Shown here: one piece after another, positions 5,293-30,375 of the stretch
Numbering within the stretch: the first letter of the stretch is position 1
How the letters are laid out: each line of letters begins with the position of its first letter
IMG/VR virus record: IMGVR_UViG_3300026484_000411
Span: 1-30,648 of that record
DNA: 30,648 bases
Source: a virus
Direction: 5' to 3' (one strand)
Notes under the pieces: model-generated
What the model saw: the letters and a program-made list of their open reading frames with translations, nothing else
Databases searched by the model: none
Told to the model about the DNA's origin: nothing
Program-made: the position numbers and the translations under genes

Positions 5293-6708
5293 TTATCCAT
5301 TTATAGCTTTTTCTCTTAATATACAGCTACCACAACTACCACATGCTTTACCATCTTTTGGATAATAACAACTAAAAGAAATATCTAATAATTCATTAAG
5401 AATTTCTTTACCAAATTCACTTTTAAATTCTCTGATCATATTAGTCTTAGTACGATTTATATATGGACTAAGTAATTTAATATTACCGTATCTTTTACCA
5501 CCATACTTACACATCTTTTCTATATTTTCCAACCAAGCGATATTATTATCTCCATATACCTGACCATCACTTAAATTTAAACCTAAACCAACCATAATTA
5601 AATGATCGTTAGATGAAACTTCTATATTATCAAATTCTTTTTGAGCTTGAGCAATTAAAGTTTGGACCATTAATGAATTTCTAAAAGGTACATAAGCACT
5701 TGTACTTTCCGTTTCTACTATATCTCCAAAAGCATTTGTATCTAATAATTTAGAAGCTTCTCCAGCTATAGATGATATACCAACAACAACTCTTTCAAGA
5801 TTTTCTTCGTATTGGTTTATATTTAAAGATTTAAAAATATCCTTATGTTTCAAATAAGACATAAAAGCATGAGAAGCGTTTAATTCTTCATTTTCTGCAT
5901 TACAACCGTACTCAAAATAAATTAATTCAACTTCAATATTAAAGTTAGTTAATTCCGATAGCTTTTTTTCAAGATCTGAGAATATTTTATAAGTATTTAA
6001 TACTGAATCCATACCGCCACTAAAAGCAATTTTTAAAATTATATGTTTATTTTTTAATTCCTTTTTTCTTGGAACCATAGATATCCCTAACCCTTCCCTA
6101 GAAAAAATATTGGTGGTACTATAAGTAGTTATATCTTCTTTTTCTTCTATGTATTTACCCATCCCTCGATCAATCATTTTTATATTTAATTTATGATCTA
6201 TTTCGATATAGCTATACAAACCTTTTAACTTTTCAAAATCCTGTTTTCTTAAATGAGCAAATATTTCCGTATCAACGGAAATCCTTCTATTTAAAGATTT
6301 TGATAATTGTTTATCATTAGAAATGGTTCCATGTACAAAATAAATACAATCCATATAATTATTAAAATATGGACTTATATTAATAACCTTTTTTTCCATT
6401 TCTGGTCGCTGTCTGCTAAATAAACATAAAACTAGTTTTGGTTTATATTTTAATTTATTTAATTCTTTCATGAATTTATTAAGTATAGAACTTAAAGCAT
6501 CATATAATTCGATAAATGAATTTTTAGAAATATGTATATCTGATAAACTAGAGCTATTCAATATGCTTATTGAATAGCCTTCCTTCTGACCCAAACCACC
6601 ACCTTTTATACTTAGTAATTTTTCAAAATCTTTTATATTTTCTAAATCTTTTCTAAGTAAAGCTTGACCATTTTTTTTATTATATTCTCTAATTATAATT
6701 TGACACAT
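5293..6708 (-). CDS. Gat-QueC: glutamine amidotransferase fused to QueC-like domain (7-deazaguanine DNA modification)
   Basis: This 471-residue two-domain enzyme has an N-terminal half like class II (Ntn) amidotransferases. Cys2 would be the nucleophile after Met removal; FVHGTISND at 124-132 and DTE at 146-148 match the family's HNG and DTE segments. From about residue 222 it is QueC-like. It has the ATP-pyrophosphatase loop SGGMDS (230-235), YVPFRNSLM near 339-347, and a C-terminal zinc site C447/C456/C459/C462 followed by ILR. Gat-QueC fusions in archaea and phages convert preQ0 to an amidine or amide form. In phages the base is inserted into DNA and shields it from restriction enzymes. 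The DNA transglycosylase (DpdA) and preQ0 pathway genes are not in this window. The exact base made here is inference. Confidence 0.85.
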   Translation of the reverse strand: MCQIIIREYNKKNGQALLRKDLENIKDFEKLLSIKGGGLGQKEGYSISILNSSSLSDIHISKNSFIELYDALSSILNKFMKELNKLKYKPKLVLCLFSRQRPEMEKKVINISPYFNNYMDCIYFVHGTISNDKQLSKSLNRRISVDTEIFAHLRKQDFEKLKGLYSYIEIDHKLNIKMIDRGMGKYIEEKEDITTYSTTNIFSREGLGISMVPRKKELKNKHIILKIAFSGGMDSVLNTYKIFSDLEKKLSELTNFNIEVELIYFEYGCNAENEELNASHAFMSYLKHKDIFKSLNINQYEENLERVVVGISSIAGEASKLLDTNAFGDIVETESTSAYVPFRNSLMVQTLIAQAQKEFDNIEVSSNDHLIMVGLGLNLSDGQVYGDNNIAWLENIEKMCKYGGKRYGNIKLLSPYINRTKTNMIREFKSEFGKEILNELLDISFSCYYPKDGKACGSCGSCILREKAING

Positions 6709-7316: not shown

Positions 7317-7994
7317 TTAAGAACTACATGAACTACATGAACTACATGAACTACATGAACTACTAGAACCACTAGAACCACTAGAACCACTAGAACCACT
7401 AGAACCACTAGAACCACTAGAACCACTAGAACTTTCAGATGTAGCAGGAGAATAAGTATCATACAAAAAATATGGTGTTGATGAATCATATCTTTCATTA
7501 ACCGAACTATTTTTTGGAACTGCTCTTGGAGACTTAGTAACTAAATACTCTTTGTTTGAATTTACAATTCTTTTTGCTATATCTTTTTTAACTGTTTCCG
7601 TTAATAGTTCATCATTTATAAACGGGACATGATGAATGTATTCTTCAAAATAAGTAAAGCAAAAATTCATATAAGCCTTTGTATCTAATAAAAAGATATG
7701 CCATAATATATCAGCTTTTTTATCAAACATACTTAACTTATTATAACTTCTAGAAGCTATAAAATAATCAAATAATCTAAATGAAATTAATTTAATATCA
7801 TTTTCTTCATCTGGAAATGTTTTAGCTAATTCCTCTTTAGTTCTTTTAACTACCACTTCTGGTAATAAATAATTATAAACTACTAATTTTTCAGGTTCAT
7901 TATTTTCTAGTTCATCACGTAACGAATCAATAAAAAATTTATATTTATTTAACTTAACTAATTCTTCATCTTTTATAATACTGTATCCAAACAT
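7317..7994 (-). CDS. GRDP-like (glycine-rich domain family) protein with Ser/Gly/Cys repeat tail
   Basis: This protein has 225 residues. The core (about 60-135) carries LWHIFLLDTKAYMNFC followed by a FEEYIHHVPF segment, matching the WH...Y..FC...HH.P pattern of the GRDP-like family, which occurs in plants, bacteria and large phages with no settled biochemical role. The tail (from about 187) is a low-complexity run of seven GSS and then four CSS units encoded by 9-nt repeats (7320-7430), the kind of tract that changes length by slippage. Start and stop overlap neighbouring genes (TAATG at the start). The family match is from memory of the motif and is only moderately certain. Confidence 0.65.
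   Translation of the reverse strand: MFGYSIIKDEELVKLNKYKFFIDSLRDELENNEPEKLVVYNYLLPEVVVKRTKEELAKTFPDEENDIKLISFRLFDYFIASRSYNKLSMFDKKADILWHIFLLDTKAYMNFCFTYFEEYIHHVPFINDELLTETVKKDIAKRIVNSNKEYLVTKSPRAVPKNSSVNERYDSSTPYFLYDTYSPATSESSSGSSGSSGSSGSSGSSGSSGSSSSCSSCSSCSSCSS
7320..7430. repeat. 9-nt tandem repeats encoding (GSS)n(CSS)n
   Basis: On the plus strand the units are GAACTACAT-type (four copies) and AGAACCACT-type (about seven copies). They encode the C-terminal tail of the GRDP-like protein in frame. Copy number is likely to vary between relatives. The regular short unit without spacers rules out CRISPR. Confidence 0.9.
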
Positions 7995-9479: not shown

Positions 9480-10343
9480 TTAAATTTTTTCTTTTAAAAT
9501 TATATTTATATTTTTGAATTCTGTGTACGGAATTCTAATTATAGGTATATTATTTTTAATACAATAATCATTCTTTATTTTATCACGTTCTTGTGTTTTT
9601 ATTAAGGCATCCTCTCCTCCAAAAAATTCTATACTTTCAAAATGTTGTTTACCATCATATTCTATTACAGTATTAATATCTTTTAAATAAAAATCAAAGC
9701 GAAACTGATCAAATAGAATATATTCCTGAATGTATTCTATATTATTTTTTTCTAGATATTCTCTTATTTTTCTTTCCCCTTTAGATTCTTTACATTTAGG
9801 ACAACCATTTCCTCTTTTATGCATACTTGGAGATTGTAAAAACTCCCCATGTTTTGGACAAATTATATTTATTTTAGTATTTGTATTTTTATAAACTACT
9901 TTTGAATAATCATATTTATCTCCATGAATTTTTTTAAAATCATAAATATGTTCATCTTGAGTTTTTATAATATTATTTGAACATTTAGGACAACCTTTTA
10001 AAAAATGATTATATGGGAATTGTAAAAAGTTTCCATGTTTTGGACAAATTATATTTATTTTAGTATTTGTATTTTTATAAACTACTTTTGAATAATCGTA
10101 TTTATCTCCATGAATTTTTTTAAATCTTAAAATAACTTCTTTTAAAGATAATCTTTTGCATTTGGAGCATCCAGAACCTAGTTTATGATTACTAGGTGTT
10201 TGCCAAAAACTACCGTGTTCTTTACAAATTATTTCAACTTCTTTTAAATTTTTAATATAAACTACTTTTGAATAATCGTATTTATCTCCATGAATTTTTT
10301 TAAAATCATAGAGAACTTTATCTAAAGATAATCGTTTAGACAT
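9480..10343 (-). CDS. Free-standing mobile (homing-type) endonuclease with three zinc-finger repeats
   Basis: The protein has 287 residues. Three repeats of about 60 residues each read (D/G)KYDYSKVVY...I.C..HG.F.Q.P..H..GC.KC, like the DUF723-type zinc modules of phage homing endonucleases, which contact DNA. The C-terminal about 100 residues look like the Vsr-like EDxHD nuclease fold: KIREYLEKNN, FRFDFYL, VIEYDGKQHF, then RDKIKNDYC and IPIIRIPY. It would cut phage DNA to spread its own gene. It overlaps the recJ stop by 8 bases and borrows its end as ribosome binding site (AAGGTGA). Repeats two and three are nearly identical in DNA at a 186-nt period. A paralogue lies at 25398-26099. Confidence 0.8.
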   Translation of the reverse strand: MSKRLSLDKVLYDFKKIHGDKYDYSKVVYIKNLKEVEIICKEHGSFWQTPSNHKLGSGCSKCKRLSLKEVILRFKKIHGDKYDYSKVVYKNTNTKINIICPKHGNFLQFPYNHFLKGCPKCSNNIIKTQDEHIYDFKKIHGDKYDYSKVVYKNTNTKINIICPKHGEFLQSPSMHKRGNGCPKCKESKGERKIREYLEKNNIEYIQEYILFDQFRFDFYLKDINTVIEYDGKQHFESIEFFGGEDALIKTQERDKIKNDYCIKNNIPIIRIPYTEFKNINIILKEKI

Positions 10344-12078: not shown

Positions 12079-12108
12079 ATTTTTTCCTTTAAATTCAATA
12101 TAAGAAAA

Positions 12109-12137
12109 ATATCTATTAGAACTAAAGTTATTTTAAA
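12109..12137 (-). promoter_or_regulatory. Promoter-like pair P3
   Basis: Minus-strand TTTAAAATAA, 10 bp, AATAGATAT. It lies about 30-60 bases before the recJ start and would drive the leftward block. The spacer is one base shorter than in P1, P2 and P5. Confidence 0.5.
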
Positions 12138-12142
12138 GTAAA

Positions 12143-12340
12143 TAACTATTTTGGAGATAACTATTAATAGTTATAACTAACATACCACCTTTAGCTATTT
12201 CGAGAAAAATATTTAGACCTTACATTGATTTTTGAAATCTTAGTATTTTCAAGAATACCAAAGCCCTATTTTTAGGGCTTTAAACAACCTCGTTAAGATT
12301 ATATTAAGACTTGTTATAAAATTCTTCAACTATTTTGGAG
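12143..12340 (+). repeat. ~200-bp intergenic repeat, copy A
   Basis: This copy follows the same plan as copies B and C, but its left edge is diverged (CATACCACCTTTAGC in place of AGAGTACCACG). It begins with TTTTGGAGATAACTATTAATAG, that is, GGAGATAAC next to the AACTATTAATAGTT palindrome. It lies in the divergent region between the leftward and rightward blocks. Together with copy B it fills most of the 580-nt gap, which otherwise holds only promoter P3 and the AT-rich approach to the polymerase gene. Confidence 0.85.
12260..12281. terminator. Hairpin terminator in repeat copy A
   Basis: AAAGCCCTA, TTTT, TAGGGCTTT: a perfect 9-bp stem identical to those in copies B and C. It is A/T-flanked and could work on both strands. 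Confidence 0.55.
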
Positions 12341-12581
12341 ATAACTATTTTAGAGATAACTAAGAGTACCACGTACTACCAATAGTTATTTCAAGAAAAA
12401 TATTTAGACCTTACATTGATTTTAGAAATCTTAGTATTTTTAAGAATACCAAAGCCCTATTTTTAGGGCTTTAAACACCCTTGTTAAGATTATATTAATA
12501 CTTGTTATAAAATTCTTCAACTATTAATAGTTATCTATTTTAGAGATAACTAAGAGTACCACGCACTACCAATAGTTATTT
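12331..12581 (+). repeat. ~200-bp intergenic repeat, copy B with a partial third start
   Basis: This is a direct repeat of copy A and a near-exact inverse of copy C. The unit runs from CTATTTTGGAGATAACTATT through the hairpin to CTATTAATAGTTATCTATTT. A further partial unit (GAGATAACTAAGAGTACCAC, 12543 onward) follows and stops at 12581, just before the leader of the polymerase gene. The repeated (G/A)GAGATAACTA element occurs four times in 12153-12552 and could be an iteron-like binding site. TTAAGA with 16 bp to TATAAA near 12484-12510 could serve as a sigma70-like promoter for the rightward block. Confidence 0.8.
12451..12472. terminator. Hairpin terminator in repeat copy B
   Basis: The same perfect AAAGCCCTA/TAGGGCTTT stem with TTTT loop. 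It is placed upstream of the RNA polymerase gene, where it would insulate the rightward block from read-through. Confidence 0.55.
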
Positions 12582-12658
12582 GGTTTTTAAAAGCATTTTA
12601 AAAGCTACTAAATAATAACATGAACTAAATATTAATTAATTAAAAAGGTTTTTAACAG

Positions 12659-15600
12659 ATGAATGCAAAAATAAAGATAGATTTTAACAACGAAAAGAAC
12701 GGTAAATTACAATTTTATGAAAAACATAATGAGGCCGGAGAATTAATAGAATATGCTTTTTTAACTTCTAAAGACGATGAAATTCAATACTTTACTCAAG
12801 ATGATGATATTAAAACTTTTCCAAAAGATCAGTTAAATAATTTTTTAATTGGATTATATAATAAAATAGCTAAAGCAAAAACTAATTCAGATAGAATTGA
12901 TAAAAAAAATAAAACAAGTGTTGTTTATTTTAACTTAAGAATGTTTGCTAGTAATTTTCCACTGGTTTTATTATTTTTCGTACATAAAGGTATTCTTGGA
13001 ACTTTAAAGTACTATGGTATAAATTATACTAAAAGTCGTACTAAAGATAGACATGCTTTTTTAAATGTTAAAATTACTCAGGATAAAAATGCAGGTTTTC
13101 TAAATATATTTGCTAAAGATACATTTGAAGAATATTTAATAAATGGAATACGTAAAGAAAACACAAGACTATTTCCAATAGATGAAAAGATGTTAGATAA
13201 TCCAAAAACTATGGAAAACTTTTTTAAAAAGTATTATTCGTTAAGCAAATATCTAAATCTTAAGAATGCTGAGAAAAACTTTATAGATATTACTACTAAA
13301 AAGGTTCTTGCTGCTAAAGGGGATCCTTCAGAATTTTTTGAGGTATTTGGTAAATTCATGCCAGATAAAATTATAAATGGAAAAATACAAAGTATTAATA
13401 GTTTAGATAATGTTCGTATTCGTATGTCAGAAAGTATTACTCATTTAGCATATAAGGTACTTCAACAGGGTATATCTCATATGAAAAATAATAGTGGACG
13501 ATATAATATTAAACTGGACATTGATAAAAATTTTATTTCAAAAGAATTACAAGCTTCGGGAATGTTACAATATACTCAAAATATTAACCCCTTAGCAGAA
13601 TTAACACTTAGTAATAAAATTACTAAGACTGGTGTAGGTAATCCTAAGAAAGACCAAATCGTTTTATCAAGAAGAGATATTAATAAAAGTTATTTTGGGA
13701 CAATTAGTCCAACTACTACAAATGAGTACGGTGGTATTGGACTAAATCAAACACTTAGTAATAAAGCTATTATTAAAGATAGATTTGGTAATGTTTTGGT
13801 ACGACCATTTAATAATGATATCAATGGCTTGGATATGCTAAGCGCAACCGATTCATTAAGTCCGTTTTATGAATACGATGATACAACTAGACGTATCATG
13901 GGAAACCAACAAGTTTCGCAGTTTGCTCAAATAGAACATCCAGATGAACCATTAATACAAACTGGTATGGAAAGTATGGTACCACATTTAGTATCTGATA
14001 GATTTGCAATTAAAGCAAAAGAAGATGGAAAAATCATTAGAGTAGATAATGAACTTAATGTAAGTTATAAAAAAGGAGAAGATGATTTCTTTAACTTAGA
14101 TGATATTATTTCAAGAACTTCTCGTGGTGTATATCTACCTTTAAAATTAACACCCTTAGTTAAAAAAGGAGAAAATGTTAAAAAGGGTCAACTCTTAGCA
14201 ACAACTTCTTCATTAAAGACGGGTAAATTAGCGGTTGGTAAAAATCTAGTAATCGCTTTAATGTCTTATAGAGGAATGAATTATGAAGATGGTTGGGCAG
14301 TAGCCGATTCAATAGGAAAAAAATTCAAAAGTACTTTACTAAAAAGAGTTGTTATACCAATAGATAGAGAAGCAAGACTATTGGATTATAAAATAGAATT
14401 GAATAAAGATACTAAACCAGGTGAAACCTTAATAGAGTATACAAATACTAAAAATGAAAATATTGAAAGTTTGATTCTAGATGCTAATGAAACTACTCAA
14501 GGCGAGGCAACAGATGGAACAGATATAGGAACTGGCCGTTCATATGAAAATGGAAATATTAAATATTTATCACCAGGTGGAAAAATAAAGAATATTAATA
14601 TTTTAATAAATTCTCAAAGTATAGATTCTCAATTATTAATACAATGGAAAAAATTAAATAAAGAGTTATCTAAAAAAATGGAGAACTGTAGAAAATTAGT
14701 AGATCCTGTTAAAAAAATGGATTGTCAAGACCAAATAAATAATTTAAAATCTGCTGTTATTGGAAATCATAAATTAAATAATGAAGTGTACGATGGAACA
14801 ATTATAGAATTATTTATAGAGTATCCAAATCCTATTCAAAATGGATCTAAGTTTACTTTACTTGGTAGTTCAGGTGGTAAAGGAACAGTCCAGTATAGAA
14901 TACCAGAAGGAATGGAACCAATAGCAGAAAAAACTGGTTTAAAGGTAGAATTTTTACCAACCCCAATGTCAAATATTTCTCGTAAAAATATATCAGTTGT
15001 CTTAAGTATTTACCTAGGAAAAATAACTTATTATATGAATCTAAAAGTTCAAGAATTAATATTATCTTCTCAGTTTCAAAAAGCAGAAGAATTATTAGTA
15101 ACTATGTTTACGTTATTAGATAAAACTCCAGAATTGGATATGGTTAATTCAATTAAAGCTTTTTTTAAATCACGAAATCATAATGAAATTATAAATATAG
15201 TTAAGAATGCTCATCCTTTACAAAGACCAGCATTTCCAATACTTGTAACACCATTTAAGAATAAACTATTAATGAAAGATATTAAAGCGGCGGCTGCTTA
15301 TTTAAAAATACCATTAAATGAAAAAGTAAAAATTATGGAAGAAGATGGTGTACTTACAGAACGAGAAGTACCAGTCGGAATAGCTCCAATAGCTGTATTA
15401 GAACATATACCACAATTTATGGCTAATGTTAGAGGGTCGGTTAATGTTAAAAAATCTACAATAACTGGTCAAGGACGTTCTGGTACTAAAGATGGAAATG
15501 GTTCAGTAAAAATAGGACTGTATGATATGTTTGGTCTTAGTTTTAAAAAGAGCACTTCTTTATTAAAAGAATTACATTATATGAAAGCAGATAATATAGC

Positions 15601-15754
15601 AGCAAGTACCAAATTAAATAATAGTATTTTAAGAACTGGAAAAATGCCAAGCCAAGAAGAATTAGATTTAACAGATGAAACTGAAAAACAATCTAAAGCT
15701 AAAAAATTAATAAGTACTTATTTTATAGGTGCTATGATACAACCAAATTTATAA
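12659..15754 (+). CDS. Phage multisubunit RNA polymerase beta subunit, single polypeptide
   Basis: This 1031-residue protein is colinear with bacterial RpoB (about 1340 in E. coli). Matches in order are: NVRIRMSESITHLAYKV (251-267), INPLAELTLSNKITKTG (309-325), RRDINKSYFGTISPT then IGLNQTLS (338-367), SPFYEYDDTTRRIMGNQQV (401-419) with IQTGMES (433-439), ALMSYRGMNYEDGWAVADS (533-551), NGSKFTLLGSSGGKGTV (728-744) with the two nucleotide-contacting lysines K731 and K741, MSNISRKNISVVLSIYLG (770-787), and a C-terminal GRSGTKDGNGSVKIGLYDMFG (939-959). The two lysines are 10 apart here, against 8 in E. coli. It is the first gene of the rightward block. In phiKZ-type phages beta is usually split into two genes; here it is one. 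No beta-prime gene is in the window. It probably transcribes phage genes. Confidence 0.9.
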   Translation: MNAKIKIDFNNEKNGKLQFYEKHNEAGELIEYAFLTSKDDEIQYFTQDDDIKTFPKDQLNNFLIGLYNKIAKAKTNSDRIDKKNKTSVVYFNLRMFASNFPLVLLFFVHKGILGTLKYYGINYTKSRTKDRHAFLNVKITQDKNAGFLNIFAKDTFEEYLINGIRKENTRLFPIDEKMLDNPKTMENFFKKYYSLSKYLNLKNAEKNFIDITTKKVLAAKGDPSEFFEVFGKFMPDKIINGKIQSINSLDNVRIRMSESITHLAYKVLQQGISHMKNNSGRYNIKLDIDKNFISKELQASGMLQYTQNINPLAELTLSNKITKTGVGNPKKDQIVLSRRDINKSYFGTISPTTTNEYGGIGLNQTLSNKAIIKDRFGNVLVRPFNNDINGLDMLSATDSLSPFYEYDDTTRRIMGNQQVSQFAQIEHPDEPLIQTGMESMVPHLVSDRFAIKAKEDGKIIRVDNELNVSYKKGEDDFFNLDDIISRTSRGVYLPLKLTPLVKKGENVKKGQLLATTSSLKTGKLAVGKNLVIALMSYRGMNYEDGWAVADSIGKKFKSTLLKRVVIPIDREARLLDYKIELNKDTKPGETLIEYTNTKNENIESLILDANETTQGEATDGTDIGTGRSYENGNIKYLSPGGKIKNINILINSQSIDSQLLIQWKKLNKELSKKMENCRKLVDPVKKMDCQDQINNLKSAVIGNHKLNNEVYDGTIIELFIEYPNPIQNGSKFTLLGSSGGKGTVQYRIPEGMEPIAEKTGLKVEFLPTPMSNISRKNISVVLSIYLGKITYYMNLKVQELILSSQFQKAEELLVTMFTLLDKTPELDMVNSIKAFFKSRNHNEIINIVKNAHPLQRPAFPILVTPFKNKLLMKDIKAAAAYLKIPLNEKVKIMEEDGVLTEREVPVGIAPIAVLEHIPQFMANVRGSVNVKKSTITGQGRSGTKDGNGSVKIGLYDMFGLSFKKSTSLLKELHYMKADNIAASTKLNNSILRTGKMPSQEELDLTDETEKQSKAKKLISTYFIGAMIQPNL

Positions 15755-15763
15755 GGAAGAATT

Positions 15764-16045
15764 ATGCAAGAATTATTAGAATTAAGTTTAGAAGAAGAAT
15801 TGGAAATTGAATTTAACTTAAATTATGGAGTTTCTTTAAAAATTAAAGAACATACTGAAAGAGAAAATAAACAATATTTAAAAGCAAATGATTTTTTTAA
15901 AAGTTGTAAATATGCTTTAACAGAACCAAGATTAAATATCTTGGTTTCTCCTGATCAAGAGAGCATCGAAACTAAAACAAGAAAAGAATTTCTGAAAGTT
16001 AGTCAAAATAAAACAAGGTACCTAAACGAGGTAAAAGGTAATTAA
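15764..16045 (+). CDS. Hypothetical protein
   Basis: This 93-residue protein begins with a strongly acidic helix (ELLELSLEEELEIEF) and becomes basic towards the end. A good AAGGA site follows the polymerase stop. It lies 9 bases after the polymerase gene and its stop codon directly precedes the ATG of 16046. Position suggests co-expression with the polymerase; any contact with it is speculation. Confidence 0.7.
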   Translation: MQELLELSLEEELEIEFNLNYGVSLKIKEHTERENKQYLKANDFFKSCKYALTEPRLNILVSPDQESIETKTRKEFLKVSQNKTRYLNEVKGN

Positions 16046-16504
16046 ATGATATTAAATATAAATAAAAAAGTAATTTTAGAAGAAGCTTCTTATAATAATT
16101 CTGGTTTTATGACTGGAGTTAATAAAGGTTTTCATGATTCTGTTTTGCCTAAATCAGCGATTCAGAGTTATTCAAACCCTGATTTAATTAAAAACGATTT
16201 AAAGAAAACCGATTTGGCATTGTCTCAAGATTTAGCTATTCGTATGGGAAGTATGTTAGCTATTAAAGGAACTTTAGGTGGTTTAGTTTACGCGGGCGGT
16301 TTAAAAGCTCATGAAATGGCTGCTGAGGCTTATCCAGAACTTGAATTAGAACCTGGTTCACAATCAGCTGATTTTGGAGCGACTGTTCCAGCGATCGCTG
16401 CTGCTTGGATAGGCGCAGATAAATTATTAGAAAAATTACCACAAGCACATAGAAAAGTATTTAAAGAAAAAAGTATATACAAGGACCCAAATGAAAAACA
16501 ATGA
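16046..16504 (+). CDS. Probable virion-internal protein with N-terminal INKK/LEEA motif
   Basis: This 152-residue protein begins MILNINKKVILEEASY, the shared motif of this gene cluster, with an L-E-E|A site after residue 13. It has two hydrophobic segments, roughly 69-90 (MLAIKGTLGGLVYAGG) and 108-125 (FGATVPAIAAAWIGAD), so it may insert into membranes. No family is recognised. The start directly abuts the previous stop. If the motif is processed like T4 internal proteins, the mature form would start at Ala14. Confidence 0.7.
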   Translation: MILNINKKVILEEASYNNSGFMTGVNKGFHDSVLPKSAIQSYSNPDLIKNDLKKTDLALSQDLAIRMGSMLAIKGTLGGLVYAGGLKAHEMAAEAYPELELEPGSQSADFGATVPAIAAAWIGADKLLEKLPQAHRKVFKEKSIYKDPNEKQ

Positions 16505-16751
16505 AGTAATTAATAAAAAAAGAATTTTATTAGCAATGCAAAACCTAAAAGATCCTCAAAGTCATGGAAAAGCTTTTGGTTATACATTAGGAACTGGTTT
16601 AGCTGGTTTAACAGCAGGTGCTTTAATAGGTGATGTTGTTGGTAGTCCTTGGACAGGTGCTGGTATAGGTATATCTGCTGGTGCTGCGACTGGAGCAGTA
16701 CAGGCAAGAAAATATTACATAGAAAAAAATTCAAAACCGAGTTTCATATAA
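16491..16751 (+). CDS. Small glycine-zipper membrane-like protein
   Basis: This 86-residue protein has a long Gly/Ala-rich segment (about 27-67) of the type LGTGLAGLTAGALIGDVVG...GAGIGISAGAATGA, a glycine-zipper pattern able to span or cluster in membranes. It begins MKNNEVINKKRILLAMQ, which keeps the INKK part of the cluster motif but lacks the LEEA end. It overlaps the end of the preceding gene by 14 bases, with an AAGGA site inside that gene. Virion or membrane-channel roles are possible but not shown. Confidence 0.7.
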   Translation: MKNNEVINKKRILLAMQNLKDPQSHGKAFGYTLGTGLAGLTAGALIGDVVGSPWTGAGIGISAGAATGAVQARKYYIEKNSKPSFI

Positions 16752-16763
16752 AGGACAATATTT

Positions 16764-17000
16764 ATGATATTAAAAATAAATAAAAGATTAATACTGGAAG
16801 CCAAAGCAGGTCCAATATATGAATCTGAATACTATGATAATTCAATACCATGTAAAGGTATTAAAAAGAAAATGGGTTTTACTTGTAAAAAAGATAAACA
16901 AGGATTTTATATAAGTACTCATAGAGCAAGAAGTAAATCTTATAAAAGCTTAGATAAGATACCTCTTAAAGATATAAATTTTATAGATAGTACTAGATAA
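16764..17000 (+). CDS. Small basic protein with N-terminal INKR/ILEA motif
   Basis: This 78-residue basic protein begins MILKINKRLILEAKAG, with an I-L-E|A site after residue 12. The rest is lysine/arginine-rich with two cysteines (SIPCKGIKKKMGFTCKK), fitting a DNA-associated internal head protein in size and charge. An AAAGGA site lies 9 bases before the ATG. A weak hairpin (AGATAAC/GTTATCT, 16995-17014) follows its stop. Function is inferred only from the motif and composition. Confidence 0.65.
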   Translation: MILKINKRLILEAKAGPIYESEYYDNSIPCKGIKKKMGFTCKKDKQGFYISTHRARSKSYKSLDKIPLKDINFIDSTR

Positions 17001-17046
17001 CTAACTCGTTATCTAAATGGATATACTATTAATTAAGGAAAAAATA

Positions 17047-17700
17047 ATGATAATAAATATAAATAAAAAAGCACTTCTAGAAGAAGCCTTTCTAGATTCA
17101 ATAAGTAAATTTTTCGCGACGATAATCCCAACTAAACTAGATAAGTTTATTAAAGAATATTTTAGTAAAGATTCTAAAAAAATATTAAATGAAGCCACAT
17201 TTAAACAATCGAAAAGAATAAACGGGGAAACGAATATGACGGACACCTGCTTAACATCAATACTAAAATTAATAGGTAAAGAAAATTTAATTAATAAATA
17301 TAAAGCAAATAGCGAAACATTTTTAAAGGGTTATTTAAAATTTGGAAAACCTATTAAAATTACTAAGAAAAATATAAAAGATGTAAAAAAAGGAACTGTT
17401 ATTTTATTTTGGTGGGAACCGGATATTAAAAAAATAAATGGAAAAAGATTACATACTAATTTCGATGGTAATAATTTAATTTCATCTAATATTGTTGGAA
17501 ATGCTGCTCATTTTGGAATAGTTTTAGATCCAGAAAAATATCTTATTTTACATAGTGCTCCTTATTCATTTGGTAATGATGGAGTAATGGATGGTATTGG
17601 TAGTGGATTGGATTTAACGATCGAAGTTAAAAAAAGTTTTTTTACTAATCCAAGTGGAGATTCTTACGCATTAGATATGAGGGTAATAAATAAATTATGA
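17047..17700 (+). CDS. NlpC/P60-like (papain-fold) protein with N-terminal INKK/LEEA motif
   Basis: The frame is open from 17017, but the ATG at 17047 has the AAGGA site and the cluster motif (MIININKKALLEEAFLDSI), so I choose it (217 residues). After about residue 60 the pattern fits NlpC/P60-like cysteine hydrolases or amidases: MTDTCLTSILKL (C68 as candidate nucleophile), VKKGTVILFWW (114-124), and AAHFGIVLDPEKYLILHSAP (153-172) with H155. A second L-N-E|A site at residues 47-50 would release the N-terminal stretch. The likely job is hydrolysis of peptidoglycan or of a peptide bond at entry, but the fold assignment needs confirmation. It overlaps the next gene by ATGA. Confidence 0.6.
   Translation: MIININKKALLEEAFLDSISKFFATIIPTKLDKFIKEYFSKDSKKILNEATFKQSKRINGETNMTDTCLTSILKLIGKENLINKYKANSETFLKGYLKFGKPIKITKKNIKDVKKGTVILFWWEPDIKKINGKRLHTNFDGNNLISSNIVGNAAHFGIVLDPEKYLILHSAPYSFGNDGVMDGIGSGLDLTIEVKKSFFTNPSGDSYALDMRVINKL
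17056..17103 (+). repeat. 48-nt duplicated 5' gene segment, first copy
   Basis: Codons 4-19 of this gene match codons 4-19 of the next gene (17706-17753) at 47 of 48 bases, including synonymous positions. The downstream proteins are unrelated. This points to recent exchange or duplication of the N-terminal module itself. Confidence 0.85.
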
Positions 17701-19895
17701 TGAAGAATATAAATAAAAAAGCACTTCTAGAAGAAACCTTTCTAGATTCAATAGGAGACTCTGGTACAACAAGAAAAGTAAATAGAAAAGTAAATAATAG
17801 CGCAAGTATATTAAAGAATAGAAAACAATTTTTAATCGATAATGTTTTGGCATCCGATGATAAATTTTTTAGAGGCAATCCTAAAAGATATATTAAAGAA
17901 ATTGATAAAGCATTCGTTGATTATGCTTCAGATAAAAAAAAGCTTCCAAATATAGATATTAGAGCCCCAAAATTATTATTAATATCGTCAACTAGATTAG
18001 AAAATGAAAACGATTTTAAAAATATTAACTTAAACTTCGTTGGATTAAAATATTCTTCTAATCAATATTATACTGAATCTATATATAATAATATTGGAGC
18101 AATTGATTTAAAATTTAAAAAAATTCTAAAACCAGATGAAAATTTATTAAAATTTATTCAATCTAATATACATGCTAAAACTAAAAATTTATTTTCTGGA
18201 CATACAACGACCATAAATAATATTAAAAATTTATTACAAACGTTACCTGTTGATTTAAGATTTGAATCTCGTTTAGGTTCAGATCATCAAACTATAATTA
18301 AATACAAATTCCCTGTAATTAAAAATACACTGACTCAAACATACAAAGGAATATATGAAAAATTAATAGATAAAGGAACCAAAGGTGATTTATACATAAT
18401 AACTTATTTCGATGATAAGTATATATTTTTTAAAGATGATGTCATAAAAAATTTAGAAAATATTTTAAATTTAGTACTTGGTAACGATATTAAAAAATTT
18501 AAAGAACAAAAAACTAAAGCAGAAAATATCAAAAAAAATATAGTATTACCAGAAGTAAAAAATATCAAAAATTTCAATGCTGTTTTATATCCTCATCAAG
18601 AAGAAGGTGTTTCTTGGTTATTAAACCAATATTATGCTAAAACACCAGGTATTATTTTAGCAGATGATGTTGGTATGGGTAAAACCATACAATCAATTGC
18701 TTTCGCGAAACTATCAAAATTAAAAGATGTCGTTGTTGTTTGTCCGGCTTCTGTAATATCAGTTTGGGAAAAAGAAATCAAACTATTTTATCCGGAATTA
18801 CTAAAAAATACTAAAATTTATTCTTATGAATCTTTTATTGGTACTAAAATAGCTAAAACAGATTTACTTATTTTGGACGAAATTCAAAAGGTAAAAAACG
18901 ATAAAACTCAAGCACATAAAAAAATAGGCACCATAGATAAAAAATTTATTATTTTATTATCTGGTACTCCTATTGAAAATAAAGTACAGGATTTATTTAA
19001 TGTAATGTACTTTATAAATCCAGTATTTAGTCAAATCTTTAATAAATTAAAAAAGATAGGTAAACAGGAAAATTTTCTAGCAAGTATAGCTAGAAAATTT
19101 ATAGATGGTTTTTATTTAAGAAGAATAAAAACAAAAAATGAATTAAAAGCAGATTTAATTCATAAAACTATTTTAATTCCTGCAAGTCAATCAGAAAAAT
19201 TAATACATAATGAAATAAAAAAATTTTATGGAAATAAATTAATAAAAGCTAAATCAGATAACAATTTATCTTATTATAATGATGTTATAATTTCTTTAAT
19301 GAGAATGAGACAGTTGACATCCGATATTAAAATGTTAAGACACGAATCATATGTTAAAGATTATATAAACGCACGAACCGTTATAAGTTCAAAATTTGAA
19401 AAAACCAAAGAATTAATAACATCATTTAAAGAAAATGATAAAATTATAATATTTTGTAGTTTTTCAAGTACTATCCAAATGTTTAAGAAAAAATATCCAA
19501 ATGCTTTTATAATAGAGGGAAGTACTCCATCAGGAAAAAGAGGAAAAATAATTAATGATTTTCAAGAATCATTACTTCCAAAAAGCATTATATTAATTTC
19601 TCTAAAAGCTGGTAATGCTGGTATAACATTAAATAATGCTAATAAAGTAATTATATATGATTTATGGTGGAATCCTGCCGTATTACATCAAGCTATTGCA
19701 AGAGCTTATAGAATTGGTCAAACGAGAGATGTAACTGCTTTTCTAATGGTTACGAAAGACACAATAGACGAAAATATTTTAAAAATTCTAGATTTTAAAA
19801 AAGAAATAATTAATACTTTTAATAATCAAGAAGCAAATGTATCTAAAAAACAAGAAGATAATGCTATAAAACAATTAGCTAAAATGATATTTTAA
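17697..19895 (+). CDS. SNF2-family ATPase/helicase with N-terminal INKK/LEET motif
   Basis: This 732-residue protein begins MMKNINKKALLEETFLDSIG, the cluster motif. Residues 20-290 match nothing I recognise. The SNF2 motor follows: LYPHQEEGVSWLL (297-309), DDVGMGKT (323-330), VVVCPASV (346-353), LLILDEIQK (390-398), LLSGTPIENK (420-429), SLKAGNAGITL (635-645) and HQAIARAYRIGQ (664-675). Such motors move along double-stranded DNA or remodel bound proteins; bacterial RapA acts on RNA polymerase. Two adjacent ATG codons are possible starts. Position after the polymerase gene allows a RapA-like role, while the N-terminal motif suggests packaging into the head. Both are inference. Confidence 0.85.
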   Translation: MMKNINKKALLEETFLDSIGDSGTTRKVNRKVNNSASILKNRKQFLIDNVLASDDKFFRGNPKRYIKEIDKAFVDYASDKKKLPNIDIRAPKLLLISSTRLENENDFKNINLNFVGLKYSSNQYYTESIYNNIGAIDLKFKKILKPDENLLKFIQSNIHAKTKNLFSGHTTTINNIKNLLQTLPVDLRFESRLGSDHQTIIKYKFPVIKNTLTQTYKGIYEKLIDKGTKGDLYIITYFDDKYIFFKDDVIKNLENILNLVLGNDIKKFKEQKTKAENIKKNIVLPEVKNIKNFNAVLYPHQEEGVSWLLNQYYAKTPGIILADDVGMGKTIQSIAFAKLSKLKDVVVVCPASVISVWEKEIKLFYPELLKNTKIYSYESFIGTKIAKTDLLILDEIQKVKNDKTQAHKKIGTIDKKFIILLSGTPIENKVQDLFNVMYFINPVFSQIFNKLKKIGKQENFLASIARKFIDGFYLRRIKTKNELKADLIHKTILIPASQSEKLIHNEIKKFYGNKLIKAKSDNNLSYYNDVIISLMRMRQLTSDIKMLRHESYVKDYINARTVISSKFEKTKELITSFKENDKIIIFCSFSSTIQMFKKKYPNAFIIEGSTPSGKRGKIINDFQESLLPKSIILISLKAGNAGITLNNANKVIIYDLWWNPAVLHQAIARAYRIGQTRDVTAFLMVTKDTIDENILKILDFKKEIINTFNNQEANVSKKQEDNAIKQLAKMIF
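17706..17753 (+). repeat. 48-nt duplicated 5' gene segment, second copy
   Basis: Partner of 17056-17103. The only difference is GCC to ACC, which changes the residue after the LEE from Ala to Thr. Confidence 0.85.
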
Positions 19896-19903
19896 GGAAA
19901 AAT

Positions 19904-20515
19904 ATGAGACCAAACGAAGACAATAATGAAATAATAGATTATGATAAAAATATAAAATTAGTTTATATGAAATCAAAAGATATTCTAACGATTAAAGAAC
20001 GTATTTGGAAACAACATAATGAAATATGTCCAATACTTGGACTTAAAATCCCTTTGAATAAAGCGGTTCTTGATCATAAACATAAATTAAAAGCAACAGT
20101 GCCTGGACCTAATCAAGGCACTGTTAGAACTTTTCTAGATTTTCGGGCAAACGCACTTGCTGGAAAAATGGAAAATGCTTTTAAAAGATATTTTGGTGCA
20201 GATGAATCAAAACATCCTATAAGTTTACCAGAGTTTTTAAGAAATACGGCTGATTATTTAGAAAATGGAGATTATGTAGAAACTTACGACGAAATTGATT
20301 ATTACTACATTCATCCAAATGAAGTACCAAAAAGAATAAAAGTTAAAAAATCTATTCAGAATAAAATCAATAAATATTATTTAGAATTGTATCCAAGAAG
20401 GAAAAAAATTCCTTCGTTTGTATACATGAGTGATGAAGTACAAAGAATATTAGATGATATAAAAGATTTAGAAATAGCCAAAGTATTAGCTAAACAAGAA
20501 AGAAAACAAAAATAG
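19904..20515 (+). CDS. Endonuclease VII-like resolvase lacking most zinc ligands
   Basis: The central part of this 203-residue protein aligns with T4 gp49, which cleaves branched DNA before packaging. VLDHKHKL (55-62) matches LDHDHEL with catalytic D57/H58, and GTVRTFLDFRANALAGKM (72-89) matches GKVRGLLCNLCNAAEGQM with N83 in the place of catalytic Asn62. Next come FKRYFG and LPEFLRNTADYLENG. Of the four zinc cysteines in T4, only the first is present (C42); the others are Leu, Asp and Ala. It therefore appears to be a zinc-less variant that keeps the active-site residues. An unrelated basic extension follows from about residue 125. AAGGAA precedes the start. Confidence 0.75.
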   Translation: MRPNEDNNEIIDYDKNIKLVYMKSKDILTIKERIWKQHNEICPILGLKIPLNKAVLDHKHKLKATVPGPNQGTVRTFLDFRANALAGKMENAFKRYFGADESKHPISLPEFLRNTADYLENGDYVETYDEIDYYYIHPNEVPKRIKVKKSIQNKINKYYLELYPRRKKIPSFVYMSDEVQRILDDIKDLEIAKVLAKQERKQK

Positions 20516-20627
20516 ATAACTAGGAAAAAATGTATATATGTTTTTAATTTTTATTAAAATAGAAATATTTTTATTTAGATTGTATTACTTCTAGAATTAA
20601 ATTATATACGACAGGAAAATATAAAAA

Positions 20628-20747
20628 ATGAAAATATACAACAAAAAGAAAACAATTTTTGATATTATTATACCATTAGGAATTGTTTTAATTGTTAATA
20701 TTATAGCTTATTTAATGGGAGGAAGCACATGCTGTGTTTTAAGATAA
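20628..20747 (+). CDS. Possible 39-residue single-pass membrane protein
   Basis: The frame starts with AGGAAAA upstream and encodes MKIYNKKKTIFDIIIPLG, then IVLIVNIIAYLMGG and a STCCVLR tail. This is one strong transmembrane segment with a basic N-terminus (inside) and a Cys-Cys tail. It overlaps the start of 20729 by 19 bases and carries that gene's GGAGGA site. Its place just before the holin makes a role in lysis possible, but nothing proves it. Confidence 0.5.
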   Translation: MKIYNKKKTIFDIIIPLGIVLIVNIIAYLMGGSTCCVLR

Positions 20748-21136
20748 ATAAAAAATTAATTTTGGAAGAAGCGTTAACAGTTGATAAAAAATATTCAATC
20801 GCTGCAAATATGAGAGATAGTAGTAAGAGTATTAAAGAAGGAGCTGATTGGCTTAAAAAATCAAAAGCAATTAGAAATAACAAAATAACTAAAGATACTC
20901 TAACTAAAGATACTCTAACTAAAGATACTCTAACTAAAGATACACTAACTAAAGATACTCTAACTAAAGATACTCTAACTAAAGATACACCAACTAAAGA
21001 TACACCAACTAAAGATACACCAAGCTCTAAACTAAAGTATACTCCTCATTTAGGTTATGATCATGATGGTCAACCAACAATTGACCATAATCTAAATTCT
21101 AGCACAGCTAAACAAAGATTTAATACAATAACATAA
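20729..21136 (+). CDS. Small protein with INKK/LEEA motif and TKDT(L/P) repeats
   Basis: This 135-residue protein begins MLCFKINKKLILEEALTVDKK, with L-E-E|A after residue 14. Residues 54-98 are nine pentapeptides TKDTL or TKDTP encoded by 15-nt tandem repeats, followed by a hydrophilic tail. It has a strong GGAGGA site. The repeat region is likely extended and flexible. The motif suggests that it is a virion-internal protein; no other function is visible. Confidence 0.7.
   Translation: MLCFKINKKLILEEALTVDKKYSIAANMRDSSKSIKEGADWLKKSKAIRNNKITKDTLTKDTLTKDTLTKDTLTKDTLTKDTLTKDTPTKDTPTKDTPSSKLKYTPHLGYDHDGQPTIDHNLNSSTAKQRFNTIT
20888..21022 (+). repeat. 15-nt tandem repeat, nine units
   Basis: Nine units of ACTAAAGATAC(T/A)C(T/C)A run without gaps (135 nt) and encode six TKDTL then three TKDTP. 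There are no spacers, so it is not a CRISPR array. The near-identical units suggest slippage and variable copy number. Confidence 0.95.
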
Positions 21137-21147
21137 AAGGATTAATT

Positions 21148-21579
21148 ATGACAGTTCCATTCGTCTCGGATATTATTCAAAGTGGTGTAGATATTTTTAA
21201 ATCTTATTTTCCACCAAATTTAACTCCTGCTCAAAAGGCTAAACTAGAAGAAGGTTTACGAGATTATGAATTAAAAATGCAAAGAAGTATAGAATCTTAT
21301 GGTAAAGAAGTTGCGAAACAACAAGGCGAAGTAATCAAGGCAGAAATTAATTCAGAAAGCTGGATGGCTAAAAATTGGCGACCAATTACTATGTTAACTT
21401 TCGTTTTTATTATAACAAATAACTATATTTTTTATCCATATATAAATTTATTTACTGATGGTGGAATATCTTTAACTATTCCACCTGATATGTGGGATTT
21501 GCTTAAAATAGGTTTAGGTGGTTATGTAGTTGGAAGATCTGTTGAAAAAGCAGTAAAAAATTATAAACAAAAGGATTGA
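21148..21579 (+). CDS. Holin (3-TM phage holin superfamily)
   Basis: This 143-residue protein has an N-terminal helix, a long charged helix (PAQKAKLEEGLRDYELKMQRS) and the family hallmark ESWMAKNWRPITMLTFVFI at about 69-87, then transmembrane segments near 79-96, 97-103 and the Gly-rich LLKIGLGGYVVGRSVEKA near the C-terminus. Such proteins form membrane holes that start lysis. It is followed directly by the secreted nuclease and the M15 endolysin, which supports a lysis cassette. An AAAAGGA site precedes the ATG. Confidence 0.85.
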   Translation: MTVPFVSDIIQSGVDIFKSYFPPNLTPAQKAKLEEGLRDYELKMQRSIESYGKEVAKQQGEVIKAEINSESWMAKNWRPITMLTFVFIITNNYIFYPYINLFTDGGISLTIPPDMWDLLKIGLGGYVVGRSVEKAVKNYKQKD

Positions 21580-21580
21580 T

Positions 21581-22261
21581 ATGAAAATATTAAAAAATTT
21601 ATTTAAATCAATAAAGTTGTTTATAGTACTGGTGATTGCCAGTTTTACTTCATTATTAGCAACTCAATTAGAATACAAAGAATACGCTTATGATCAAGTT
21701 ATCCATAAAAGTTATTACAGTAGTTATTACAATTATGAATTAAAGGGACCAGTAATGGTAAAATATCAATTAGATGGAGATCTGGTTAATAAAATCAATA
21801 TTAAAAAAAGACCAGGTTTTAGATCAGAGAAAAAAATTCCTGCAAAGTATAGAAATTACTCATCTGATTTTAAAAAACAACCAACTTATAACAAAGGTCA
21901 TATGTTGGCAGACGCTGCAACAGATTTCGATAAAGCGATTTTAAAGGAAGCTTACGAAATGAGTAATATAGCAGTACAATCTTCTAAATTAAATCAAGGT
22001 CCTTGGAAGCGTTTAGAAGCGTATGCTAGAACACTAGCAGTTGAATACGGAACTGTTTTTGTTGAAAATTATATAAGATATAAGCAACCATTAAAAAGAA
22101 TTGGTAGACATGAAATAGCAGTTCCATATAAAATTACAAAAAAAATTGAGTATTTTGATGAAACAAAAGCTCTGATAAAAGAATGTTATGCTTTTCCTAA
22201 TGAAAATTCTTTACTAATAAGTAAAAAGTTTAAAGATTATAAAGTACAATGTTCTGATTAA
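21581..22261 (+). CDS. Secreted DNA/RNA non-specific endonuclease (beta-beta-alpha metal, NUC1 type)
   Basis: This 226-residue protein has an N-terminal signal-like segment (LFKSIKLFIVLVIASFTSLLA, about 7-27). The core has YNKGHMLADAATDF at 104-117, matching the YDRGHLAPDA motif with H108 as the likely catalytic base. NQGPWKRLEAY at 139-149 follows, with N139 as metal ligand and E147. The usual DRGH has become NKGH, so Asp and Arg are replaced. Enzymes of this family degrade DNA and RNA outside the cytoplasm. It sits between holin and endolysin in the lysis cassette, with an AAGGA site. The style resembles chromosomally encoded nucleases of Campylobacterota, from memory, so it may be a captured host gene. 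Confidence 0.8.
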   Translation: MKILKNLFKSIKLFIVLVIASFTSLLATQLEYKEYAYDQVIHKSYYSSYYNYELKGPVMVKYQLDGDLVNKINIKKRPGFRSEKKIPAKYRNYSSDFKKQPTYNKGHMLADAATDFDKAILKEAYEMSNIAVQSSKLNQGPWKRLEAYARTLAVEYGTVFVENYIRYKQPLKRIGRHEIAVPYKITKKIEYFDETKALIKECYAFPNENSLLISKKFKDYKVQCSD

Positions 22262-22271
22262 AGGATTTTAA

Positions 22272-22793
22272 ATGACTAATATCACTACAGAATTAGATAT
22301 TAAAGATACTATTAAATTTAACGAAGCAAAGACTATTAAATTATCTAAAAATTTTACATTAAGTGAATTTTTATATTCTAGCACTGCTCTTAGAAAAAAT
22401 ATAAACAACGATTTACCTAGAAAATATTTACAGAATATAAAAGATTTAGTAAATTATATTCTTCAACCACTTCGGGATAAATTTGGTCCTATAAAAATAA
22501 CTTCTGGTTTTAGAACGGAAGAATTATGTGTAGCTATTGGTAGTTCTGTAACGAGTAATCATGCTAAGGGTTTAGCGGCCGATTTCAAACCATATAATAA
22601 AAAAATAAAATTATATGATATTATAGAATTTATTAATGAATTAGATTATAAAGAACTTATTGGAGAATATTTTCCAACTGGTTGGATACACGTCGCTTTT
22701 CAAAATAATAATAATAAAGGTACTTTAAGATTAAAAGATAAATACTGTGATTATGAAGAAGTTGAACTAAAAGATTTTTTAAAGTTTTCTTAA
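22272..22793 (+). CDS. M15-type peptidase endolysin
   Basis: This 173-residue protein is of the D-Ala-D-Ala carboxypeptidase-like M15 fold used by many phages to cut peptidoglycan cross-links. Seen: FTLSEFLYSSTA near 28-39, ITSGFRTEELC near 76-86, SNHAKGLAADF at 95-105 with zinc ligands H97 and D104, and GWIHVAF at 137-143 with H140. There is no signal peptide, so it would need the upstream holin to reach its target. An AAAGGA site precedes the ATG. The stop codon overlaps promoter P5. Confidence 0.85.
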   Translation: MTNITTELDIKDTIKFNEAKTIKLSKNFTLSEFLYSSTALRKNINNDLPRKYLQNIKDLVNYILQPLRDKFGPIKITSGFRTEELCVAIGSSVTSNHAKGLAADFKPYNKKIKLYDIIEFINELDYKELIGEYFPTGWIHVAFQNNNNKGTLRLKDKYCDYEEVELKDFLKFS

Positions 22794-22819
22794 AAATATA
22801 AGAATAGTTTTATAGATAT
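22790..22819 (+). promoter_or_regulatory. Promoter-like pair P5
   Basis: TTAAAAATAT, 11 bp, TATAGATAT on the plus strand. It has the same arrangement as P1-P3 and lies just before 22843-23580. The first box overlaps the endolysin stop codon. Confidence 0.45.
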
Positions 22820-22842
22820 TAATAAGAAACAAAGGATTTAAA

Positions 22843-23580
22843 ATGATATTTTATGCAAATAATGATCCTTCAGATAATGATATTAACCCTAACATAATTC
22901 AACCATCTATTGAAGATATTTTGTCTGAGACAAAATATCTTCACGGTATTGATATTAAAAATTTTAATTATTATTTATTTGAAAGTGATCTTGAAAAATT
23001 ACAAGACCGAGAATTAAAAATAGTAATGGATTCTTTAATACAGGATTTTTTAGATAATTTAAATGAAAATTATTTAGATATCGATTTAGAAAGTTTTAAA
23101 GCATTAATTAAAGAAGATAAAAAAACAATTTTAAAAAAATTTATATTATTTTTTATGCAAATACTACCTTTCGAAATTTTAAAACCAATTTTAAAAACAT
23201 TACATACTAATGGTTTAGGAAATGATATTATAGATAATAGTTTTATTTTAAATGATTTAAAATCTCCTAATTTAAATCTTTTAAATAATATTTTTGATTA
23301 CGATAATCAAAATATACATTTATTAAAAGATTTAATACTAGATGAAATTAATAAAAAAATTAATAAAACTAAAAATTTTATTACTATAGTAGATGAAATT
23401 TTAGAATCAAGTAAGAAAAATACTTTAGAAAATTCTAGAGATATTTTCGAAGAACATGTTATAAAACAAAATAATTATTACGGTGTTTATAAATCAATTA
23501 TTCAGAATACCGATTTAGAAAAAATAGTAAGATTATTTAGAACATATATACAAAACGATTATTTAAATATAGTTAGTTAA
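22843..23580 (+). CDS. Hypothetical acidic, helical protein
   Basis: This 245-residue protein is rich in Asn, Asp, Leu and Ile, with mostly helical segments and a hydrophobic patch (KKFILFFMQILPFEILKPI, about 94-112) that could be a helix buried in a complex rather than a clear membrane span. I recognise no family. An AAAGGA site precedes the start. It follows promoter P5 and is followed closely by the zinc-knuckle protein, which ends at a terminator. Confidence 0.7.
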   Translation: MIFYANNDPSDNDINPNIIQPSIEDILSETKYLHGIDIKNFNYYLFESDLEKLQDRELKIVMDSLIQDFLDNLNENYLDIDLESFKALIKEDKKTILKKFILFFMQILPFEILKPILKTLHTNGLGNDIIDNSFILNDLKSPNLNLLNNIFDYDNQNIHLLKDLILDEINKKINKTKNFITIVDEILESSKKNTLENSRDIFEEHVIKQNNYYGVYKSIIQNTDLEKIVRLFRTYIQNDYLNIVS

Positions 23581-25397: not shown

Positions 25398-26099
25398 ATG
25401 TCTTTAAATAATAAAATATTTATAAATAGGTGTATAAAAAAGCATAATCACAAGTATAATTATTCTTTAGTCAAATATAAAACTTTAGCGGATAAAGTAA
25501 CAATAATATGTAGAAAACATGGAAAATTTGAACAAGTCGCAGAATATCATATGAATGGTTCCGGATGTCAACTTTGTAATAAAAGAGGAAAGAATTCAGG
25601 TAAAGAAATAATAGAAAGATTTAAGAAAACACACCTTGATGATTATGATTATTCTTTAGTTGATTATAAAACTACCAGAACAAAAGTACTTATAATATGT
25701 AAAAAACATGGAAAATTTTTACAAACACCAATGAGCCATATGAATGGTTCTGGATGTCCAATTTGTAAAAATTCAAAAGGTGAGATAAAAATAAGAAATT
25801 ATTTATTAAACACTGGACTAACCTTTTATCAAGAATATAAATTTAAAAATTGTTTTGATAAATTAAAATTACCTTTTGATTTTTATTTACCAGAATTAAA
25901 TACTGTTATCGAATATGATGGAGTACAACATTTTCAAGAAATAAAACAATTTGGTGGATTTAAAAGATTTAAAGAAACTAAAAAAAGAGATGAAATTAAA
26001 AATAAGTTCTGCAAAGAAAATAAAATTAATTTAATAAGAATTCCATTTTATTATTTTTCTCAAATAGAAGAAATATTAAAATTTAAACTAAGAAATTAA
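25398..26099 (+). CDS. Free-standing mobile (homing-type) endonuclease with two zinc-finger repeats
   Basis: This 233-residue protein is paralogous to the gene at 9480-10343. It has two DNA-binding zinc repeats: YNYSLVKYK...VTIICRKHGKFEQVAEYHMN, then DYDYSLVDYK...VLIICKKHGKFLQTPMSHMN, each closing with GSGC..C. The C-terminal EDxHD nuclease-like part has KGEIKIRNYL, PFDFYLPE, VIEYDGVQHF and RDEIKNKFC with IRIPF. The start has no ribosome binding site, so it is probably translated poorly or by coupling to the gene before it, from which it is separated by 8 bases. It is inserted between an unknown gene and the primase-helicase. Confidence 0.8.
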   Translation: MSLNNKIFINRCIKKHNHKYNYSLVKYKTLADKVTIICRKHGKFEQVAEYHMNGSGCQLCNKRGKNSGKEIIERFKKTHLDDYDYSLVDYKTTRTKVLIICKKHGKFLQTPMSHMNGSGCPICKNSKGEIKIRNYLLNTGLTFYQEYKFKNCFDKLKLPFDFYLPELNTVIEYDGVQHFQEIKQFGGFKRFKETKKRDEIKNKFCKENKINLIRIPFYYFSQIEEILKFKLRN

Positions 26100-29137: not shown

Positions 29138-29177
29138 GAGAAAATACTGATAGTATCTATACTATCAGTATTTTCTC
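29138..29177. terminator. Bidirectional terminator with an 18-bp perfect stem
   Basis: GAGAAAATACTGATAGTA and TACTATCAGTATTTTCTC flank a TCTA loop. It lies between the converging primase-helicase gene and the gene at 29176-29529, and its right arm overlaps the latter's stop codon. TTTT and AAAA runs within the arms would serve termination in both directions. Confidence 0.85.
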
Positions 29178-30261: not shown

Positions 30262-30270
30262 CTTTTTACT

Positions 30271-30340
30271 TTAATTAAATTTTATTTTTAAGTCGTTTTC
30301 ATATCTTTCTAAAAATTCCTTTTTAGAAAATTTTTTTCCC
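30271..30340 (-). pseudogene. Relic of a YwqK/MORN-like gene tail
   Basis: Minus-strand codons read SKKEFLERYENDLKIKFN and a stop, matching the C-terminal tail of 29539-30261. No start codon or repeats are attached; upstream is the end of the next repeat gene with a different tail. It is a leftover from recombination between tandem repeat genes. Confidence 0.7.
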
Positions 30341-30375
30341 TGGTGTTTGTACTATATTAGTCTTCAATTATTTTA

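Follow-up and report, generated by a model that had tools for sequence, protein, structure and literature searches.

Reviews treat the DxDGD triad as invariant in all two-barrel RNA polymerases (RNAPs) (PMC4666361, PMC7824862) and virion RNAPs as early enzymes (PMC4666361, PMC7598289, PMC7824862, PMC13282480). A 1031-aa protein (P0001) encoded in a 30,648-base IMG/VR virus record, the whole of which we call the window, raises the question of which kind of phage RNAP it belongs to and whether that enzyme is still a polymerase. Its gene is a single uninterrupted frame (Table 1), and the product matched Rpb2_6 (3e-12) and Rpb2_3 (1e-5) in Pfam, the phage-beta profiles of PHROG (best phrog_3148, 3e-44) and bacterial betas of solved structure in the PDB (1e-35), in agreement with an earlier sequence-only reading that had taken it for the beta subunit of a phage multisubunit RNAP. 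Similarity to bacterial beta is only distant, and scores against the NCBIfam rpoB models fall far below their cut-offs. Other IMG/VR contigs, up to 281 kb long, yielded nine relatives of about equal length (40–76% identity), and our beta alignment comprised these and the window sequence. Pairwise dN/dS was 0.04–0.20 for beta and 0.08–0.22 for the N-terminal gene of the partner subunit (beta-prime N), showing that both are under purifying selection (0.04–0.22). Foldseek returned RNAP beta at the top for an AF2 model of a window-type beta (pLDDT 55) and RNAP beta-prime for that of beta-prime N (pLDDT 68, barrel <50); because of the low values for beta and for the beta-prime barrel, we left loop geometry uninterpreted. 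Judged by these matches, the ORF is a real gene for a multisubunit-RNAP beta subunit.

Table 1 Positions of the features discussed, in the window unless a related contig (G001, G003 or G005) is named
Feature	Position	Strand	Remarks
Predicted beta core subunit (middle and C-terminal parts) of a virion-type multisubunit RNAP	12659-15754	+	1031 aa; Pfam, PHROG and PDB matches, alignment, tree
E543-D544, equivalent to E. coli beta E813-D814	14285-14290	+	Invariant in clade
K731-FTLLGSSGG-K741, equivalent to E. coli beta K1065...K1073	14849-14881	+	Both Lys invariant, 10/10; spacing 10 versus 8
Intergenic region between RecJ-like gene and beta	12079-12658	.	Candidate phage promoter/terminator region
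AACTATTAATAGTT-type elements, three copies before beta	12140-12192, 12339-12391, 12529-12581
155-nt direct repeat holding AACTATTAATAGTT-type elements	12180-12334, 12371-12525		With hairpin AAAGCCCTATTTTTAGGGCTTT
Further copy of upstream element	11-30	-
Downstream block, same direction as beta	15764-21136	+
Primase/helicase-like gene	26141-29125	+	Last gene collinear with G001, where beta-prime N starts 1.5 kb on
Virion-type beta-prime N	G001 68576-70015
Separate beta N-terminal gene	G005 226344-227999		Directly upstream of beta
Separate beta N-terminal gene	G003 21282-22931
Separate beta N-terminal gene	G001 129998-131797

In an IQ-TREE phylogeny (LG+F+R4), the window beta groups with the virion betas of phiKZ, SA1 and LPJP1, apart from non-virion and cellular betas (SH-aLRT/UFBoot 96.6/93; FastTree support 0.98), and its own clade received 100/100. 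BLAST matched the virion-type set to phiKZ gp178, gp180 and gp80. By tree and best matches, then, the window beta belongs among the virion RNAPs of phiKZ-type jumbo phages. The sequence-only reading had proposed this phylogeny and a search for beta-prime; the tree, together with the distance from bacterial beta, rules out a recent host rpoB remnant, and beta-prime homologues are present in related genomes. Three contigs read nearly throughout (G003, G005 and G001; 281, 272 and 167 kb) each carry two RNAP sets, virion-type and non-virion, the second being seen in these relatives and the window spanning 30.6 kb only. The non-virion set comprises a beta-prime N with a zinc ribbon, a beta-prime C carrying NADFDGD or NHDYDGD and a two-piece beta, and it groups in the tree with the non-virion RNAPs of AR9 and phiKZ. 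Its beta-prime is split within the catalytic barrel, just before NADFDGD (G005 125471–126715 and 122685–124697; also G003 and G001), with PF00623 positions 1–113 in one gene and 124–161 in the next, whereas in phiKZ the beta-prime split comes after the barrel.

The window beta had been described as unsplit, with all main blocks in one frame. The phiKZ break between gp178 and gp149, which gives the C-terminal piece (gp149) a gene of its own (PMC7824862), is indeed absent, but another break detaches the N-terminal third. Profile alignment covers only residues 424–1329 of E. coli beta, from about residue 225 of P0001 onwards; the conserved N-terminal block is missing from the frame and in relatives forms a separate gene of ~550–600 aa, which rules out a whole, unsplit beta. 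In the virion betas of SA1 and LPJP1 (~1420–1440 aa) it is the second half that aligns to P0001, and residues ~440–580 match the separate gene (profile E 5e-8). In the distant relative L085 a similar-looking block (GRMLIDGKINLLVNQLFIVPI) is, by eye, contiguous with the P0001-homologous part; profile comparison of the separate N-terminal gene with L085 was not significant. Because the alignment starts at E. coli residue 424 and the N-terminal block is separate in relatives, the clade beta is, on this evidence, a two-piece subunit made of an N-terminal gene and a joined middle and C-terminal gene, broken at a different place from that of phiKZ.

Within the beta alignment, the equivalents of E. 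coli beta R678, Q688, E813, D814, K1065, K1073, R1106 and H1237 are invariant (10/10). The alignment bears out the earlier observation that K731 and K741 are kept but two residues farther apart, with the intervening Arg/His lost; the spacing is 10, versus 8 in E. coli. The lysine motif reads GSKFTLLGSSGGKG, with a spacing of 10, in the window and the relatives closest to it, and the spacing is 9 in more distant relatives; in the virion RNAPs of phiKZ, SA1 and LPJP1 and in the non-virion RNAP of the clade the spacing is 8, also without Arg/His. The spacing of 9–10 is thus clade-specific as far as these sequences go. The loss of Arg/His is ordinary, because those phage RNAPs lack it too, and it is ruled out as the mark of a special enzyme.

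The catalytic aspartates lie in the partner subunit. Virion-type beta-prime N reads KRDP[GA]W...P[LI]GGDS in 15/15 clade contigs, where outgroups have R[YF]P...(A/G)D[FYH]DGD, and two of the three DxDGD aspartates are gone from every legible clade sequence (15/15). The triad is complete in 12 of the 13 outgroups; the thirteenth, phiR1-37, ends at DFDG, its annotated gene being cut mid-motif. Depending on the alignment, four residues have been deleted (against phiKZ-type sequences) or two substituted without a gap (D460P/D462G, against E. coli), with one Asp left either way. The Asp of RDP, which corresponds to E. coli beta-prime A426, is present in 15/15 clade members, and 13/13 outgroups have Tyr or Phe there; the Arg before it (E. 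coli R425) is universal, and the position of the Asp lies near the NTP ribose. In the clade the barrel is without the long insert that virion-type enzymes have before the loop, and beta-prime C keeps the bridge helix (SGARG..D.RK) and the trigger-loop hinge (TA.PGYL.R). Six clade contigs have exactly one D[FY]DGD-coding site apiece, and two others have none; in G001, G003 and G005 the site falls within the non-virion beta-prime. In phiKZ (NC_004629; gp180/gp179, L061 36100–39258), an apparent loss in gp180 (APLGAD) proved to be an intron artefact: the annotated gene stops at an intron, with the HNH gene gp179 inside, that separates PLGAD from FDGDTVSF, and FDGD lies in exon 2, the exon missing from the record. 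Because phiKZ gp180 retains the motif across its intron, triad loss is not ancestral. In the open-access literature we found no report of triad loss.

Window positions 2910–29125 are collinear with G001 41014–67071. From this synteny and the 15/15 relatives we infer that the beta of the window phage pairs with a triad-less beta-prime, the window ending (30648) just short of where that gene would be expected.

We consider it probable that this clade keeps an RNAP whose Mg-binding triad has been destroyed, which would make it either the superfamily's first pseudo-RNAP, put to a new use in the virion, or its first case of a relocated metal site. The more specific reading, to which we assign a probability of roughly one half, is that the window encodes the beta core of a virion-type RNAP in a clade that also has a canonical non-virion RNAP, and that the virion-type enzyme has turned into a pseudo-polymerase. 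The complex of beta and triad-less beta-prime would be packaged in the head, would no longer add nucleotides while still binding DNA or nucleic acid, and might act, once injected, as a scaffold or regulator bound to the genome; synthesis would be done by the canonical non-virion RNAP, possibly with host RNAP at first. If so, evolution can preserve a polymerase that has lost catalysis, as an injected DNA-binding machine; the alternative would mean that the metal site is open to rebuilding. The clade also casts doubt on the rule that, in jumbo phages with two RNAPs, early transcripts are always the work of the virion RNAP.

The putative packaging in the head has contextual support from the genes downstream of beta and from the relatives. 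Four ORFs (16046–16504, 17017–17700, 17697–19895 and 20729–21136) share an N-terminus, INKKxLLEE[A/T], that resembles the T4-type capsid-targeting/prohead-protease signal with its LxE/A cleavage site, and the third, an SNF2 helicase, weakly matches the phiKZ virion helicase gp203. A T4-type prohead protease (PF03420) was found in related contigs, and the G001 protein at 158459–159238, which carries an INKKxLLEE-type peptide, lies near one of the weak, below-cut-off matches to the Gp23-type major capsid protein (PF07068) seen in two of seven contigs. What counts against a pseudo-polymerase is that the invariant beta active centre and the kept bridge helix and trigger-loop hinge seem to exceed what a purely structural role demands.

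The region before beta bears on which enzyme transcribes these genomes. The gene heads a rightward block, as the sequence-only reading had noted, with a divergent RecJ-like gene on its left, and the intergenic region between them is rich in repeated elements (Table 1). In G001 the orthologous beta, too, is preceded by an element of this kind, and in each of the three long contigs a distinct upstream element recurs many times; that of G005 (~80 bp, TTTTAGAACT..TATATATC) is present in 38 copies, one of them before the non-virion RNAP genes. These elements are candidate promoters of a phage RNAP. Sigma70-like promoters showed no excess upstream of the relatives' genes, and because of this and the strong phage-specific elements, host RNAP as the early enzyme is not supported.

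A different reading of the same residues, unlikely in our estimate, is that the enzyme still polymerizes with a rewired metal site, in which the Asp of PLGGD, the Asp of RDP and the Glu-Asp pair of beta hold the metals. It stays a rival because the beta residues, bridge helix and trigger-loop hinge are kept and because the RDP Asp, next to a universal Arg, is specific to the clade; the strong purifying selection and the upstream elements, which suggest a phage promoter system, also fit it. Set against this, no double-barrel RNAP is known to function in the absence of DxDxD (PMC7824862, PMC4666361), and with pLDDT <50 the geometry of the beta-prime barrel is beyond modelling. We think it improbable that the aspartates are supplied in trans, the window-type beta working with the non-virion beta-prime or in a hybrid assembly: the active side of beta is intact and the same phages hold one intact beta-prime, but the virion-type beta-prime N is itself under purifying selection, contigs with this beta also carry it, and the two beta sets are very distant on the tree. 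That the virion RNAP is an ordinary active enzyme whose loop was misread, an exon, intein or further gene restoring FDGD, gains some plausibility from the phiKZ intron at this exact site and from the group I introns in AR9 RNAP genes, yet it is largely refuted, since the frame passes unbroken through 'PLGGDSFNTN' in 15 contigs, the beta-prime N and C genes of G001 overlap by one base, and the 281-, 272- and 167-kb contigs contain no other DxDGD. Of the two roles left open by the sequence-only reading, virion or late transcription enzyme, the virion one agrees with the tree and best matches, and the late one, although the gene heads a rightward block, is very doubtful, as a separate set groups with the AR9 and phiKZ non-virion RNAPs.

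Among described systems, the virion RNAP of phiKZ (gp178, gp149, gp180 and gp80, with orthologues in SA1, LPJP1, 201phi2-1 and phiR1-37) is the closest counterpart of the clade enzyme, sharing the beta branch, the beta lysines, a beta-prime divided into N and C genes of comparable length, and two RNAP sets per phage. The clade departs from it in the place of the beta break, the loss of two triad aspartates, Asp for Tyr/Phe in RDP, the lysine spacing of 9–10 rather than 8 and the missing barrel insert. The AR9 and phiKZ non-virion RNAPs are homologous but belong to a different branch from the window beta; the clade phages have an orthologous canonical set that keeps DxDGD and the zinc ribbon. 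The mReC RNAPs (Weinheimer and Aylward 2020, PMC7481178) likewise are multisubunit enzymes of uncultivated Caudovirales from IMG/VR and other metagenomes. Resemblance to cellular beta and beta-prime was the criterion by which they were chosen, and NADFDG is kept in them (PMC7481178). By that published description the clade stands apart, its beta-prime being split and the virion-type motif lost: a near-cellular beta-prime with NADFDG is absent from the virion-type set, and the non-virion set has NADFDGD or NHDYDGD but is split. For the Gp23-type major capsid protein, another mReC trait, the clade gave the weak matches described above. Profile searches run without a positive control gave no match to chimallin (phrog_4795), the marker of the nucleus-forming Chimalliviridae, in seven clade contigs and none to the gp68 promoter subunit, and a host search over the genome contigs returned one short, weak stretch and nothing more.

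The rest of the window holds several further features. On the minus strand lie six adjacent ORFs of 110–125 aa (206–2874), at least four of them clearly paralogous (FLDWLEE...) and most ending in FEGD; a QueC-like 7-deazaguanine synthesis domain joined to an N-terminal part that weakly resembles a glutamine amidotransferase (5293–6708), possibly concerned with DNA modification; an ORF with a C-terminal SGSSGSS/CSSCSS tract (7317–7994); and proteins of HREDGPAxEY..WYLNGK repeats (29539–30648), with related ORFs in G001. Two related ORFs, at 9480–10343 (minus strand) and 25398–26099 (plus strand), combine Cys-pair repeats with an endonuclease-like EYDGKQHFE-like motif and have several copies in G001. 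A perfect, terminator-like 19-nt inverted repeat lies between converging genes at 29138–29177.
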